From positions 1 through 64,000 of the forward strand of contig CAJPFH010000014.1 of NCBI GenBank assembly GCA_905339165.1: a stretch of DNA of 64,000 nucleotides. Direction: 5' to 3'. This DNA comes from Flavobacteriales bacterium (GTDB lineage Bacteria > Bacteroidota > Bacteroidia > Flavobacteriales_E > Vicingaceae). Of this stretch, positions 13,006-17,969 are shown piece by piece (position 1 is the first letter of the stretch; every line of letters starts with the position of its first letter). Both the position numbers and the translations under genes were made by a program. Below the pieces are notes generated by a model. The model was not told the origin of the DNA. It was given only the letters and a program-made list of their open reading frames with translations, and searched no databases.

Positions 13006-13704
13006 ATGCATTCTGTTCCCCTTAAGCAAAATAATAAACCCATTCACTTATTTTTTTTTACTTCGGTATGGCCGGTATTGCTGCTTTTAATACCCATGTT
13101 TTTATTAAAAATTATTGAAAATTATTATAACCTGTCTTTTTCTCAGTATGGAATATTTCCCAGAAAAATAAGCGGGTTATCGGGTATTTTATTTTCGCCC
13201 TTTATACATGGAAACTGGGCTCATCTTATAAATAATGCAATTCCCTTATTTATTATGGGCGTTGCCATGTTTTATTTTTACAAAGAAATAGCTTGGAAAA
13301 CATTTTTTTGGATATGGATAATGCAAGGGATTTGGACTTGGCTGGCGGCCAGGGAATCTTTTCATGTTGGAGCAAGCGGGATTTTATATGGATTGTTCGG
13401 CTTTTTGCTTTTAAGTGGAATTATTAGGATGAATAAGGCCTTATTGATTATTTCCTTGCTGGTTGTTTTAGAATATGGCAGCATGGTTTGGGGAGTGTTT
13501 CCAATTAAATACGAAATAAGTTGGGAATCGCATTTATGGGGTTTGGCAGCAGGTGTGGCGCTGGCGTTTGTTTTTAAGAAACAAGGAATGCAAAGAGAAG
13601 TTTATAAGTGGGAAGAAGATGAAGAAGAGGTTGAAAATGCTATGAGTGAAATAAAAGTGAATTACGAATTTATAGAGAAAAATAAAAATGATGAAGCGAA
13701 CTAA
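13006..13704 (+). CDS. Rhomboid-family intramembrane serine protease
   Basis: Multi-pass membrane protein with the rhomboid catalytic dyad: Ser124 in GASGILYG and His176 in SWESHLWGLAAG, plus the conserved loop HGNWAHLINN near residues 68-77. Rhomboids cleave transmembrane segments of substrates within the bilayer; the substrate here is unknown. I use ATG 13006, giving 232 residues, rather than an upstream TTG 27 bases earlier. The acidic C-terminus (EEDEEEVENAM) is cytoplasmic or periplasmic tail. Its stop overlaps the dltA stop on the opposite strand by 2 bases, so the two transcripts converge without a spacer. Confidence 0.88.
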   Translation: MHSVPLKQNNKPIHLFFFTSVWPVLLLLIPMFLLKIIENYYNLSFSQYGIFPRKISGLSGILFSPFIHGNWAHLINNAIPLFIMGVAMFYFYKEIAWKTFFWIWIMQGIWTWLAARESFHVGASGILYGLFGFLLLSGIIRMNKALLIISLLVVLEYGSMVWGVFPIKYEISWESHLWGLAAGVALAFVFKKQGMQREVYKWEEDEEEVENAMSEIKVNYEFIEKNKNDEAN

Positions 13705-15200
13705 TCCTTTTTTGAGGTATAAAATGTTATCAATTTATTTTTATCTACCTTATGACTTGCATTATAAGGAAACTCATCAAGTACAACAATATCCGAAGGA
13801 ATCATATAGTAGGGTAATTTTTTTTTCAAAAAATCAGTTAGTTCATTAATTGCGTTGTCTACATTCTGATTGAGTATTACAAAAGAAATTATTTTTTTTA
13901 CCTCTGCATTTCGTTTGAGAGGAATGGTTACAGCATCATTAATAAGGTAGTGGGTTGAGATAACGTGGTTTATTTCGTTTATTTCAATTCTAAAACCGTG
14001 TAACTTTACTTGGTCATCATTTCTGCCTAAGAAAAAAAATAAACCTTCTGTTTGATAAGATAAATCACCTGTTTTAAAACTTTGGTGTTTATTATGTGTA
14101 AAAAACTTGAGATTGTTGAGGGATTCATTTTTAAAGTACCCTGCCGACACATGGGGGCCGTTTATAATAAGCTCACCTTCTTTTTCATCTGCAGAATTAA
14201 AATCTATAAACAGTTCCGCATTCGGTCTACAATAACCTATGGGTAATGTAGTGTATTTCTCAATTACATCATCGGTAATTTCTATAAAAGTGGTTACAAT
14301 GGTGGCTTCGGTTGGCCCGTATGCATTGTAAATAGAACATTCGGGAAACAATGCTTTAAGTTTTTTACAAGTGATATTCGGAAGTTCCTCTCCCATAAAC
14401 AGGAATTTCTTTAGCGATGGTATTTGGTCTTTCACAAAAGAAACATTTCGCAGAAAAATAAAAATAAAAGAGGGGGTGGATGTCCAAACCGTACAACGGT
14501 ACTTTGTTAATCGGTTTATAAAATCTTCCTGATTTTTTGCTACATCATGAGAAGTTAAAACCAAACTTCCTCCAACAGAAAAAGCGTTTATCACATCGCA
14601 TAAAGAAACGTCAAACGAAAAAGGGGCTTGGTTTAGGAATACATCGTTTTGATGAAAGCCAAAGTCTGAGGTAGCCCAATTTACAAAAGAAATAATATTG
14701 TTTCGGGTTATTTGAACCCCCTTAGGTTCTCCAGTAGACCCGGAAGTAAACATTATGTATTGTAAAAGTTCGTTTTTAATGTGATAAATATTGTTTTCGA
14801 ATTGGGGAGAGGCATTTTCTTTAACTATTAGTTCGCTATTAATAGATATTGGAATAGAAAAGGGTAATGGGAGTTGAGTGCAGTTAATAGCCATTTGAGA
14901 CCCCGTTTGTTCTATAATTTTTTCAATTCTTTGCGGTGGGTATATAACGTCTATCGGAACGTAGGTAATACCAGAAGAGAAACAAGCAAGAATAGAAACG
15001 GGAAAAAAGTGTTCTTTATGTCCATAAATAAGAATAGGGTGACCTTTAGGAATACCTATTTTATTAAATAATTCGGATAACTGTTCTACTTTGTTTTTTA
15101 ATTCATCCCAGTTTAAATCTACATCGCTGGCAGAAATGGCCAATTTATGGGGCCAATTTTCTAACTCGGTAAATTCATTGCAAAAAAAGTTAAATTTCAT
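13701..15200 (-). CDS. dltA: D-alanine:carrier-protein ligase-like adenylating enzyme (DltA-like)
   Basis: 499 residues of the ANL adenylation superfamily. Core motifs are FTSGSTGEPKG (151-161), NAYGPTEAT (292-300), KTGDL near 387, and the C-terminal catalytic Lys484 in SHKVDKNKL. The family activates an amino acid as its adenylate and loads it on the phosphopantetheine of a carrier protein. In the standard pathway DltA loads D-alanine onto DltC, and dltC is in this same operon. The amino acid preference cannot be read from the sequence by eye. It is the last gene of the operon; its ATG directly abuts the dltB stop. Confidence 0.88.
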   Translation of the reverse strand: MKFNFFCNEFTELENWPHKLAISASDVDLNWDELKNKVEQLSELFNKIGIPKGHPILIYGHKEHFFPVSILACFSSGITYVPIDVIYPPQRIEKIIEQTGSQMAINCTQLPLPFSIPISINSELIVKENASPQFENNIYHIKNELLQYIMFTSGSTGEPKGVQITRNNIISFVNWATSDFGFHQNDVFLNQAPFSFDVSLCDVINAFSVGGSLVLTSHDVAKNQEDFINRLTKYRCTVWTSTPSFIFIFLRNVSFVKDQIPSLKKFLFMGEELPNITCKKLKALFPECSIYNAYGPTEATIVTTFIEITDDVIEKYTTLPIGYCRPNAELFIDFNSADEKEGELIINGPHVSAGYFKNESLNNLKFFTHNKHQSFKTGDLSYQTEGLFFFLGRNDDQVKLHGFRIEINEINHVISTHYLINDAVTIPLKRNAEVKKIISFVILNQNVDNAINELTDFLKKKLPYYMIPSDIVVLDEFPYNASHKVDKNKLITFYTSKKD

Positions 15201-16373
15201 TTATTCATTTTTAAAAAAGGGTGCATAGCCACTAAAGATATAAAGAGAAAATGCGGCCAAATGAAACATTATAAATAGGCTTAAATATTTTACAATAGAA
15301 GAGTTCATATTTCCAAAAACAATATCGCGATTGTATTTTTTGCAATAATAAATGTACGTATTATATACTACCGAGTAAATAGCAAAAAGAACACCGCTAA
15401 GTATAAAGTTTAATGAAAAGCCGTTCCAACACCCCATGAGGGCAAAAGTTAAAAAAAGAGACATATTTTGACGAAATAGGGGCATTTTTTTTAACCTTTT
15501 TTTTCTGGTAAAAAATAAGTACAGAGGTGAAAAAAAATTATCTTTTAGCCAAGTTCCAAGACTGATATGAAAACGATTCCAAAAATCTTGTGGGTTTTGA
15601 GCTAAATAGGGTTTATTGAAGTTTAATGGCAAGTGAATACCCATCATTTTCCCTACTCCTAACGCCATAAAAGAGTATCCTGCAAAATCAAAGAAAAGGT
15701 AAAAATAGTATGCATACATTGTATTTAACGTATTTAGAGAATAGAAGGAAGCGGTTTCAGAATCATTCAGCCAATATCTGCTAACCAGTTCGGCAAGGAT
15801 AAACTTAAATGCAATTCCTTTAACTAAATAATTCCATGCGGAAATAAAATTTTCGGGAACTAAATTTCTAAACCCGAGTTCTTCTGATTTTTTAAAATTA
15901 CTGTAACGGTCTATTGGACCAATAAGGAGAGAGGGGGTAAACGCTAAAAAATTAAAATACGAAAACAGATTAGGCATATTTTCGTTGTTCGATTTTTCCA
16001 TGTAAAGTCCTACCGTTTTAAAAGAAGCATAAGATAAACCCGCAAACGAAATAATATCATTTAAACGAAAAGGGTAATAGTGTACCCGTATATCGGATTT
16101 TACAAGAACGAGTGGTAAAAGCAAAAGTAGTATGCCCCACAACTTAATATTAAACCTAAAAACCGATAAATTTAAAAAGGTAACAATGTATGAAAAAAGT
16201 ACAAGTAGAAGAAAGTGTGTGGGCTTAGGAAATACAAGCACCAGAAAAAGAGCATTTAGGAAAAAGAGCACTTGTTTATAGAACTTATTTGGAACAAAAA
16301 ATTTAGAAAAATGGAGCAGCAATATGAAGATACCCATTAAAATAAAAAACTCGTATGTGGTAAAAGGAAGCAC
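15201..16373 (-). CDS. dltB: MBOAT O-acyltransferase, DltB-like, with WHG changed to WNG
   Basis: 390-residue multi-pass membrane protein of the MBOAT family. It has the DltB-like block DFWNRFHISLGTWLKDNFF, keeping the first conserved His (His289 of the Streptococcus numbering), and a C-terminal FHLAAFSLYIFSGY resembling Gram-positive DltB. The second, catalytic His lies in WHG in known DltB proteins (His336), but here the triplet is WNG (codon AAC, minus strand near 15424-15426), and the following GxxHG is GVLFA. In the known system DltB moves D-alanine from DltC onto DltX for transfer outside. The start is GTG 16371-16373, three bases after the dltX stop. Confidence 0.85.
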   Translation of the reverse strand: MLPFTTYEFFILMGIFILLLHFSKFFVPNKFYKQVLFFLNALFLVLVFPKPTHFLLLVLFSYIVTFLNLSVFRFNIKLWGILLLLLPLVLVKSDIRVHYYPFRLNDIISFAGLSYASFKTVGLYMEKSNNENMPNLFSYFNFLAFTPSLLIGPIDRYSNFKKSEELGFRNLVPENFISAWNYLVKGIAFKFILAELVSRYWLNDSETASFYSLNTLNTMYAYYFYLFFDFAGYSFMALGVGKMMGIHLPLNFNKPYLAQNPQDFWNRFHISLGTWLKDNFFSPLYLFFTRKKRLKKMPLFRQNMSLFLTFALMGCWNGFSLNFILSGVLFAIYSVVYNTYIYYCKKYNRDIVFGNMNSSIVKYLSLFIMFHLAAFSLYIFSGYAPFFKNE

Positions 16374-16376
16374 TGC

Positions 16377-16526
16377 TTAAAATTGCTGATAAATAAATTG
16401 CACCGATGATTTAGTTTGGTTATTAGGGTGTATGTTTAAAGGATTGTACAACCAATACAACAGAAACGCAATGGTTGTATACAACAAGAGGTTTAAAACG
16501 AAACGAATTAAAATATTATTTTTCAT
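16377..16526 (-). CDS. dltX: DltX-like membrane microprotein ending in FIYQQF
   Basis: A 49-codon gene missed by ordinary length cut-offs. One hydrophobic helix (about 5-27, NILIRFVLNLLLYTTIAFLL) is followed by a polar linker and the C-terminal tail SSVQFIYQQF. Size, single N-terminal transmembrane segment, tail of type FxYxxF with a Tyr (Y46), and position beside dltB and dltD all match DltX of Gram-positive dlt operons, whose C-terminal Tyr motif is required for D-alanine transfer. Its ATG (16524-16526) overlaps the dltD stop by 11 bases and its TAA lies 3 bases before the dltB start, so it is tightly coupled. There is no database search behind this, but the context and the tail agree. Confidence 0.82.
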   Translation of the reverse strand: MKNNILIRFVLNLLLYTTIAFLLYWLYNPLNIHPNNQTKSSVQFIYQQF

Positions 16527-17736
16527 AAAGTAGTTTATAATAGGTTGCAATTTCCTTGTTTACTGTTAGCCATCCAAAGGAAGATAAGTGCATAATGTCG
16601 CTTAACATTGCTTTATCGTATAAAGCAGGGCTGCTTGTATATAAATTTAAGCAAGGCATAGCTTTTCCTGTTTCCGGCTTTGTAATTTCGTTTACTACTT
16701 GTTGTATAATGGGATCTAATTCTTCTGCATTTTTATAGTACAGGGGGTTGATGGGTTGGATGATAAAGTATGCATTTATATTTTGTTCCCGCACATACTT
16801 TACAAGCATTTCAAAGTCTTTCCATTCGGTATTAAATTTTCTGTTAACCGCACTAACGCGGCCTTTTTTGTTTTTTATGTAGGAAGTATAATATGCGTTA
16901 TTGATACCCATTTTATTATTATTAGCCTTATTATTTACCTCTTTTCTCGCCTCTTCAAGGAGGGTATTCCATTTTATATTCTGCACACGGTTTAATGAAT
17001 AATTGGAATATTTAATTTTTACAGATGCAGATTGATTGCTGATATTACTAAGTAAACGATGTTTTTTTGAAAGTAAGAAATTAGAGATGTTGCAGAGAGG
17101 ATAATAAATGCCCTTATGGATAAAAGATTTTTGAGATTGGTGTTTAAGAAATATTGTTTTAAGTTCTAAAGAAGGGTTATTAAAATCTGGAAAAAGTTGT
17201 GAAATTCTGGAACCTACGTAGGTAGAATAAATATTTTTTTGGGTAGAAATTTTGTAAAAAAAAATGGGAGAGTTATAGTTTAAGAGAACCTCGGAAGAGG
17301 TTCCTTTACTAAAAGTAGATTCAAACCATCCCGGAGAAATAATAAACACAATATTTTTTTCTTTTAGTTTGGTTTCATTAGCCATAAGTTGGCAAAGTAT
17401 TGACAAGCTTTGATTGCCCGCAGCACCATATGAAAACACATTGGCATTAAAGTTTTTATTTAAAAAAAAATGCGGAACTTCCGGTTCACTAGAGGTTAAT
17501 TCCGATGAGCCTATGATAAAAATAGATTTTTGTCCATTATCAGGTGTATTTAAAAACGAGTTCTCTAAAAGAGGGTTTGATTTAAATGTGGGAATAAAAC
17601 TAGGGGATAGAAAGAGGGTATCTTTGGGAGCAGAGCTAAAAAGTAAATGATTTAAACCATTAGAGTGGTATAAAAAAAAAGTAACAATGAAAGATAGAAT
17701 AGCAGGAAAGATACATGTTAGAAGAAAATTCTTCAT
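16516..17736 (-). CDS. dltD: DltD-like D-alanyl transfer protein (SGNH-like hydrolase fold)
   Basis: 406 residues: one N-terminal membrane anchor (about 5-23), then a periplasmic domain. The catalytic set of DltD is present: GSSEL (76-80) with the nucleophilic Ser, and D380-x-x-H383 (SDIMHLSSFGW) near the C-terminus. DltD in known systems takes D-alanine from the membrane complex and puts it on the envelope polymer. It follows dltC by 2 bases and overlaps dltX by 11. The middle (about 160-300) is diverged from Gram-positive DltD, which fits a different acceptor. Confidence 0.85.
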   Translation of the reverse strand: MKNFLLTCIFPAILSFIVTFFLYHSNGLNHLLFSSAPKDTLFLSPSFIPTFKSNPLLENSFLNTPDNGQKSIFIIGSSELTSSEPEVPHFFLNKNFNANVFSYGAAGNQSLSILCQLMANETKLKEKNIVFIISPGWFESTFSKGTSSEVLLNYNSPIFFYKISTQKNIYSTYVGSRISQLFPDFNNPSLELKTIFLKHQSQKSFIHKGIYYPLCNISNFLLSKKHRLLSNISNQSASVKIKYSNYSLNRVQNIKWNTLLEEARKEVNNKANNNKMGINNAYYTSYIKNKKGRVSAVNRKFNTEWKDFEMLVKYVREQNINAYFIIQPINPLYYKNAEELDPIIQQVVNEITKPETGKAMPCLNLYTSSPALYDKAMLSDIMHLSSFGWLTVNKEIATYYKLLYEK

Positions 17737-17738
17737 TC

Positions 17739-17969
17739 TTATGGTTCAACTTTTTTTATGGTTTCAACAATATTTTCAATAGTATCAAAGTTTTCTTCTA
17801 CAATAAGATGTTGAGGTATTTTTTTTCCAATATATTCTTCAATGGCTACAATCAACTCTACGGTTGAGATGGAATCCAGTAGCTTAGATTTAATAATAGA
17901 TTCATTGTCATCTACCTCTCTAAAGGAAAGATTCTTAATTTCATTTTTCAAAAAATCCTTTATTTCCAT
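17739..17969 (-). CDS. dltC: D-alanyl carrier protein-like acyl carrier protein (DltC-like)
   Basis: 76 residues, the size of a DltC/ACP. The prosthetic-group serine is Ser33 in LLDSIS (the family has LDS), with the helix TVELIVAIEEYIG following. It carries the activated acyl group as a phosphopantetheine thioester between the adenylating enzyme and the MBOAT protein. It is the first gene of the dlt operon and lies 61 bases downstream of the M23 peptidase gene on the same strand, so it may be read from that promoter or from its own weak one. Confidence 0.87.
   Translation of the reverse strand: MEIKDFLKNEIKNLSFREVDDNESIIKSKLLDSISTVELIVAIEEYIGKKIPQHLIVEENFDTIENIVETIKKVEP

Follow-up and report, generated by a model that had tools for sequence, protein, structure and literature searches.

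DltX is a small protein that carries alanine across the Gram-positive membrane. Descriptions of it are confined to Gram-positive bacteria, and other MBOAT/SGNH acylation systems are said to work without such a microprotein (PMC5541007, PMC12148441). Kamar et al. described an invariant leucine in its helix (PMC5541007), a relay through an acylated tyrosine is established for Staphylococcus aureus DltX and Campylobacter jejuni PatA, and the view that the separate DltX of Firmicutes is what other MBOATs carry in cis has been published (PMC12148441). Its partners have known functional residues: Streptococcus thermophilus DltB has two active histidines, His289 and His336 (PMC11035591); one MBOAT histidine, His315 of PatA, which may be either active-site position, has been called universal (PMC12148441); and Cys268 of Bacillus cereus DltA is the D-Ala selector, excluding L-Ala (PMC8972799). 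A literature search returned no report of DltX outside Gram-positives, although subscription papers were largely beyond its reach and a prior mention is possible; the term ‘DLTx’ in the Bordetella literature denotes lung transplantation and is unrelated. Here we describe a DltX in the window, by which we mean the whole 64 000-nucleotide stretch of Flavobacteriales DNA analysed. The protein is of a known kind, newly found in Bacteroidota, and the variant catalytic site of its partner DltB is the more surprising part of the finding.

A small conserved gene between dltD and dltB

The minus strand of the window carries a five-gene operon encoding a carrier protein, DltD, a small frame, DltB and DltA. 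The dltC-like carrier gene (17739..17969) specifies 76 amino acids with an LLDSIS phosphopantetheine site, recognized by the Pfam PP-binding model; its match to the NCBIfam DltC model lies below the cut-off. It is followed by dltD (16516..17736), coding for an SGNH transferase (Pfam DltD, E 3.6e-54), by the MBOAT gene dltB (15201..16373), which has a GTG start and is identified by a structural match and by the NCBIfam model LTA_dltB (E 4e-71; 240 bits, cut-off 375), and by dltA (13701..15200), coding for a carrier-protein ligase of the DltA type of AMP-binding enzyme.

The small gene, dltX (16377..16526, minus strand; ATG at 16526, TAA at 16379-16377), encodes a 49-amino-acid single-pass membrane microprotein, MKNNILIRFVLNLLLYTTIAFLLYWLYNPLNIHPNNQTKSSVQFIYQQF. 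It overlaps the stop end of dltD by 11 bases (16516-16526), and 3 bases separate its end from the GTG of dltB at 16373; the first-pass annotation had described the 49-codon frame with its N-terminal helix, the overlap and the gap, and its coordinates, overlap and gap were exact. The membrane helix is placed at approximately residues 8-27 (16446..16505, minus strand) from the sequence and an AlphaFold2 model, in which the predicted helix covers residues 3-27 with block pLDDT values of 77-89, and Lys2 and Arg8, N-terminal to the helix, suggest an N-in, C-out topology. The protein ends in FIYQQF (residues 44-49; 16380..16397, minus strand), a putative acyl-shuttle motif that fits the FxYxxF pattern already noticed in the first reading, and its Tyr46 (codon 16389..16391, minus strand) would be the acyl acceptor by analogy with S. 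aureus DltX and C. jejuni PatA (PMC12148441).

An alignment scan for DltD in 84 980 species genomes added three Bacteroidota dlt loci that are much more distant, with DltDs 29-37% identical to that of the window, and searches around the relatives of these three carriers yielded ten more; among four Bacteroidota loci compared, DltD identity ranged from 29 to 89%. The small frame is present in every Bacteroidota locus in which dltD lies beside dltB (15/15), all 15 copies end in F[IV]YQQF, with F44, Y46, Q47, Q48 and F49 invariant, and conservation among the copies peaks at this FxYQQF tail rather than in the helix. Gene order is C-D-X-B-A wherever all five genes are on the contig (one locus, L153, stops before dltA), with the carrier gene upstream of dltD in each of the 15. 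A Bacteroidales metagenome-assembled genome, McBI.38, contains an additional dltC-dltD pair with none of dltX, dltB and dltA (L015 5712-7200, the same as L106); this orphan pair contains the only dltD without the small frame, and no dltB is found there.

Compared with its congener (L006/L011), dltX shows seven base changes, leaving six codons synonymous and one not, and the resulting values (dN 0.008, dS 0.25, dN/dS ~0.03), like those for dltD (dN 0.052, dS 0.22) and dltB (dN 0.019, dS 0.23), derive from this single congeneric pair, pairwise dS being saturated at greater distances. The gene is under strong purifying selection. The first-pass annotation had held that an invariant Tyr46 in a frame kept between dltD and dltB would speak for a DltX, and that a missing frame, a lost tail or a high nonsynonymous rate would speak against it; frame, tail and tyrosine proved to be retained throughout, and the nonsynonymous rate to be low. 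That the frame is an untranslated product of chance, as its shortness and Pfam matches uniformly below the cut-off might be taken to mean, is exceedingly improbable given the dN/dS value and the profile homology described below, and we rejected this reading because the frame is conserved in all 15 of these divergent loci.

Homology to Firmicutes DltX and occurrence

Profile-profile comparison of the Bacteroidota and Firmicutes DltX families with hhalign gave a probability of 95.7% and a score of 37.9 over 40 columns, against a maximum of 17.8 in 200 column-permuted controls and of 18.4 when the tail was kept in the permutations. Removal of the eight C-terminal columns still left a score of 35.8, so the helix is homologous and the resemblance is not merely that of a convergent motif. 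A hidden Markov model built from 70 Firmicutes DltX sequences scored the window protein at 14.0 bits, a value reached by none of 500 full shuffles and none of 500 shuffles that kept the tail (best 13.9). The DltX identity proposed at the outset, together with the suggestion that a DltX profile be used to check it, is thus upheld by profile-profile comparison with permutation controls. The protein also has the general attributes of the family, namely about 50 amino acids, a single helix near the N terminus, an FxYxxF tail and the genes dltA-dltD alongside. Either Leu23 or Leu26 may be the equivalent of the helix leucine of Kamar et al., and the only such position invariant in Bacteroidota is in the pair Leu26-Tyr27.

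Pfam DltX (PF12459) aligns with nearly the full length of the window protein at 14 bits and with the other Bacteroidota copies at 19.8 bits at best, some giving no match, all below a curated cut-off of 25 that is a detection threshold rather than a biological feature; family-based annotation will therefore not name these proteins. A search of NCBIfam gave no matching small-protein model for the window DltX and a sequence search for a solved DltX structure found none; we regard the weak matches obtained, with a designed protein and with ATP synthase protein 8, as fortuitous.

True DltD occurs in one of 395 genomes sampled over the Bacteroidota, that one being the window's own, in two of its 60 nearest relatives, both of the same genus, and in 5/118, 2/118 and 6/119 relatives of the other three carriers (these relatives' counts leave out the carrier itself, and three genomes occur in two sets). 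The Dlt system is thus rare and patchy in Bacteroidota. Partial matches to PF04914 in three other Bacteroidota, covering only 46-118 profile positions (one of the three sequences was read), were set aside as SGNH-like fragments rather than DltD, and a scan of viral contigs for DltB found none. The expectation that DltX had been widely overlooked therefore holds in the sense that the gene was missed in every dlt locus, but not in the sense of many genomes. Its presence in every Bacteroidota dlt locus means that having the relay tyrosine on a protein apart from DltB is a trait of the Dlt lineage itself and not of Gram-positive walls, and provides a rule for locating missed copies.

A dlt operon is also found in Klebsiella electrica (NZ_CP041250; L007 3457-7509), in the order D-X-B-A-C among IS transposase genes. 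It shares with the Bacteroidota loci the D-X-B-A block, a WNG motif in DltB and a sister position in the DltB tree, but its carrier gene is last, whereas in Bacteroidota it is first. The X gene has 40 codons, is annotated as hypothetical and ends in FEYQKF; its product scores a non-significant 1.1 bits, being too short and divergent for a profile match of its own, so its assignment as DltX rests on position and motif. Near-identical dltD genes with the small X are present on plasmids of K. electrica, Klebsiella pneumoniae and Enterobacter cloacae, and a search of the E. coli collection for DNA related to the Klebsiella dltB gave nothing.

A tail-less DltB with an altered active site

The predicted structure of the window DltB matches the DltB structures 8jem and 6bug (Z 39). 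The Gram-negative DltBs end at or just after YIFSG and have no fused tail, whereas a fused C-terminal tail consisting of FIYFQF or a variant of it is present in 22 of the 23 other MBOATs that we inspected, which came mostly from the window's genome and those of the other carriers (L118, near a contig end, shows no tail), from which we conclude that DltX supplies the missing part. Two more MBOATs in the window's genome (contigs C45 and C116; L120 and L126) are of the fused type, with WHG and a C-terminal FIYFQF, and the MBOAT domain of the latter carries a long insertion.

Alignment to 6bug places His289 at His269 of the window protein (codon 15567..15569, minus strand) and His336 at Asn317 (codon 15423..15425, minus strand). 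The His289 equivalent, within FWxRxH, is kept in every DltB seen. At the second position all 15 Gram-negative DltBs have WNG (the 14 readable Bacteroidota sequences and that of Klebsiella), whereas WHG is found in the 77 Firmicutes DltBs of a first survey, in nine matches from a clostridial survey (one of them the L072 genome) and in the 23 other bacterial MBOATs. In a maximum-likelihood tree of MBOATs the Dlt clade (support 100/100) consists of a Firmicutes group (100/99) and a Gram-negative group (99/96), so that one His-to-Asn change suffices, although Klebsiella sits on a long branch of less certain position. By fold, tree and operon, the window protein is a DltB with a variant active site. 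Eukaryotic MBOATs usually have Asn or Asp at the first of the two positions and His at the second; the Gram-negative DltBs have the reverse, His first and Asn second.

The replacement of His336 might be read as a sign that the Gram-negative Dlt lineage is degenerate and inactive. We rejected this reading, which we regard as very unlikely, because the five genes are intact, dltX, dltD and dltB are under constraint, and an asparagine invariant at this depth, in 15/15 sequences, argues for function and against decay. Rather, from the alignments, His269 is likely to be the catalytic base in the absence of His336, and we consider it somewhat more likely than not that the centre has been rewired in the Gram-negative DltB branch, with position 336 fixed as Asn and the DltX tyrosine acylated via His269. 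If this is true, a supposedly essential MBOAT histidine is dispensable in nature, and Bacteroidota envelopes are aminoacylated by a relay that nobody has sought. With this fixed substitution, nature offers a way to test which residue is the catalyst of acyl transfer in bacterial MBOATs.

The proposed relay in comparison with known systems

We consider it very likely that the frame encodes a genuine DltX, acting as acyl-relay subunit in a Gram-negative Dlt system. In such a relay, DltA would charge the carrier protein with an alanine-sized amino acid, probably D-Ala, and the aminoacyl group would cross the membrane by way of DltB to reach Tyr46 in the periplasmic FIYQQF tail, this first transfer proceeding without the usual second active-site histidine and with Asn317 in its place. 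The tail would then swing to DltD, where Ser77 would accept the group, and DltD would esterify some periplasmic or cell-surface polymer. Ser77 (in GSSEL), Asp380 and His383 (in DxxH) of DltD are invariant in our alignments and are putative catalytic residues. Against the relay we count the Pfam DltX score of 14 rather than 25 bits, the exchange of Cys268 in most Bacteroidota DltAs and the absence of His336, which may mean an altered chemistry. A structural model likewise gave no support. The dltX and dltB frames happen to be in register with a stop between them, and to test whether the tail would reach into the funnel of DltB we folded an artificial DltX-DltB fusion, the stop being read as Gly as a modelling device; the model was good for DltB but left the tail unplaced (pLDDT <50), and we claim no placement.

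DltX could also be a real, conserved subunit whose sole role is to keep DltB and DltD in contact, the tyrosine remaining unacylated and DltB transferring directly to DltD. A single-pass helix would suit such a scaffold, and without His336 transfer to tyrosine may not be catalysed as it usually is, but the strongest conservation is at the FxYQQF tail and not in the helix, and the motif is fused to 22 of the 23 ordinary MBOATs examined and is acylated in PatA (PMC12148441); we therefore think a pure scaffold unlikely.

A further alternative retains the proposed relay and concerns its cargo. At the Cys268 position, 12 of the 13 Bacteroidota DltAs read have Met, Ile, Ala or Leu (Met in the window; Cys only in L150) and the Klebsiella enzyme has Ile, and teichoic acid is not expected in these envelopes, both of which favour a cargo other than D-Ala. 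However, the pocket Met is Cys in most Bacteroidota DltAs (FDVSLCD / FLFMGE), amounting to a Cys/Met swap (window; L144-L152) by which the pocket volume looks compensated, and the amino-binding Asp197 is kept. An alanine-sized substrate is plausible from the sequences, which do not secure its D-configuration, and a different cargo, as a non-exclusive sub-case of the relay, seems possible but the less probable outcome.

Firmicutes DltX (PF12459; Bacillus thuringiensis, S. aureus) and Bacteroidota DltX have in common a length of about 50 amino acids, one helix, an FxYxxF motif with an invariant tyrosine and a place in the dlt operon, and are homologous along helix and tail. They differ in the tail, mostly FIYNEF in Firmicutes and F[IV]YQQF in Bacteroidota, in the linker between helix and tail, about seven residues longer in Bacteroidota, and in gene position, between dltD and dltB rather than in the X-A-B-C-D order of Bacilli. 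Several clostridial loci (L160-L165) have dltX directly after dltD, unlike the Bacilli, and in one clostridial genome (G852; L157, L166, L167) a stretch of about 7 kb contains three dltD genes. PatA, AlgI and other fused-motif MBOATs have the same hexapeptide and, by inference, an acyl-tyrosine relay to an SGNH partner (PMC12148441). In these systems, however, the motif lies within the MBOAT itself, whereas the Bacteroidota Dlt system has it on a protein of its own, uses a carrier protein as donor and shows WNG instead of WHG in DltB.
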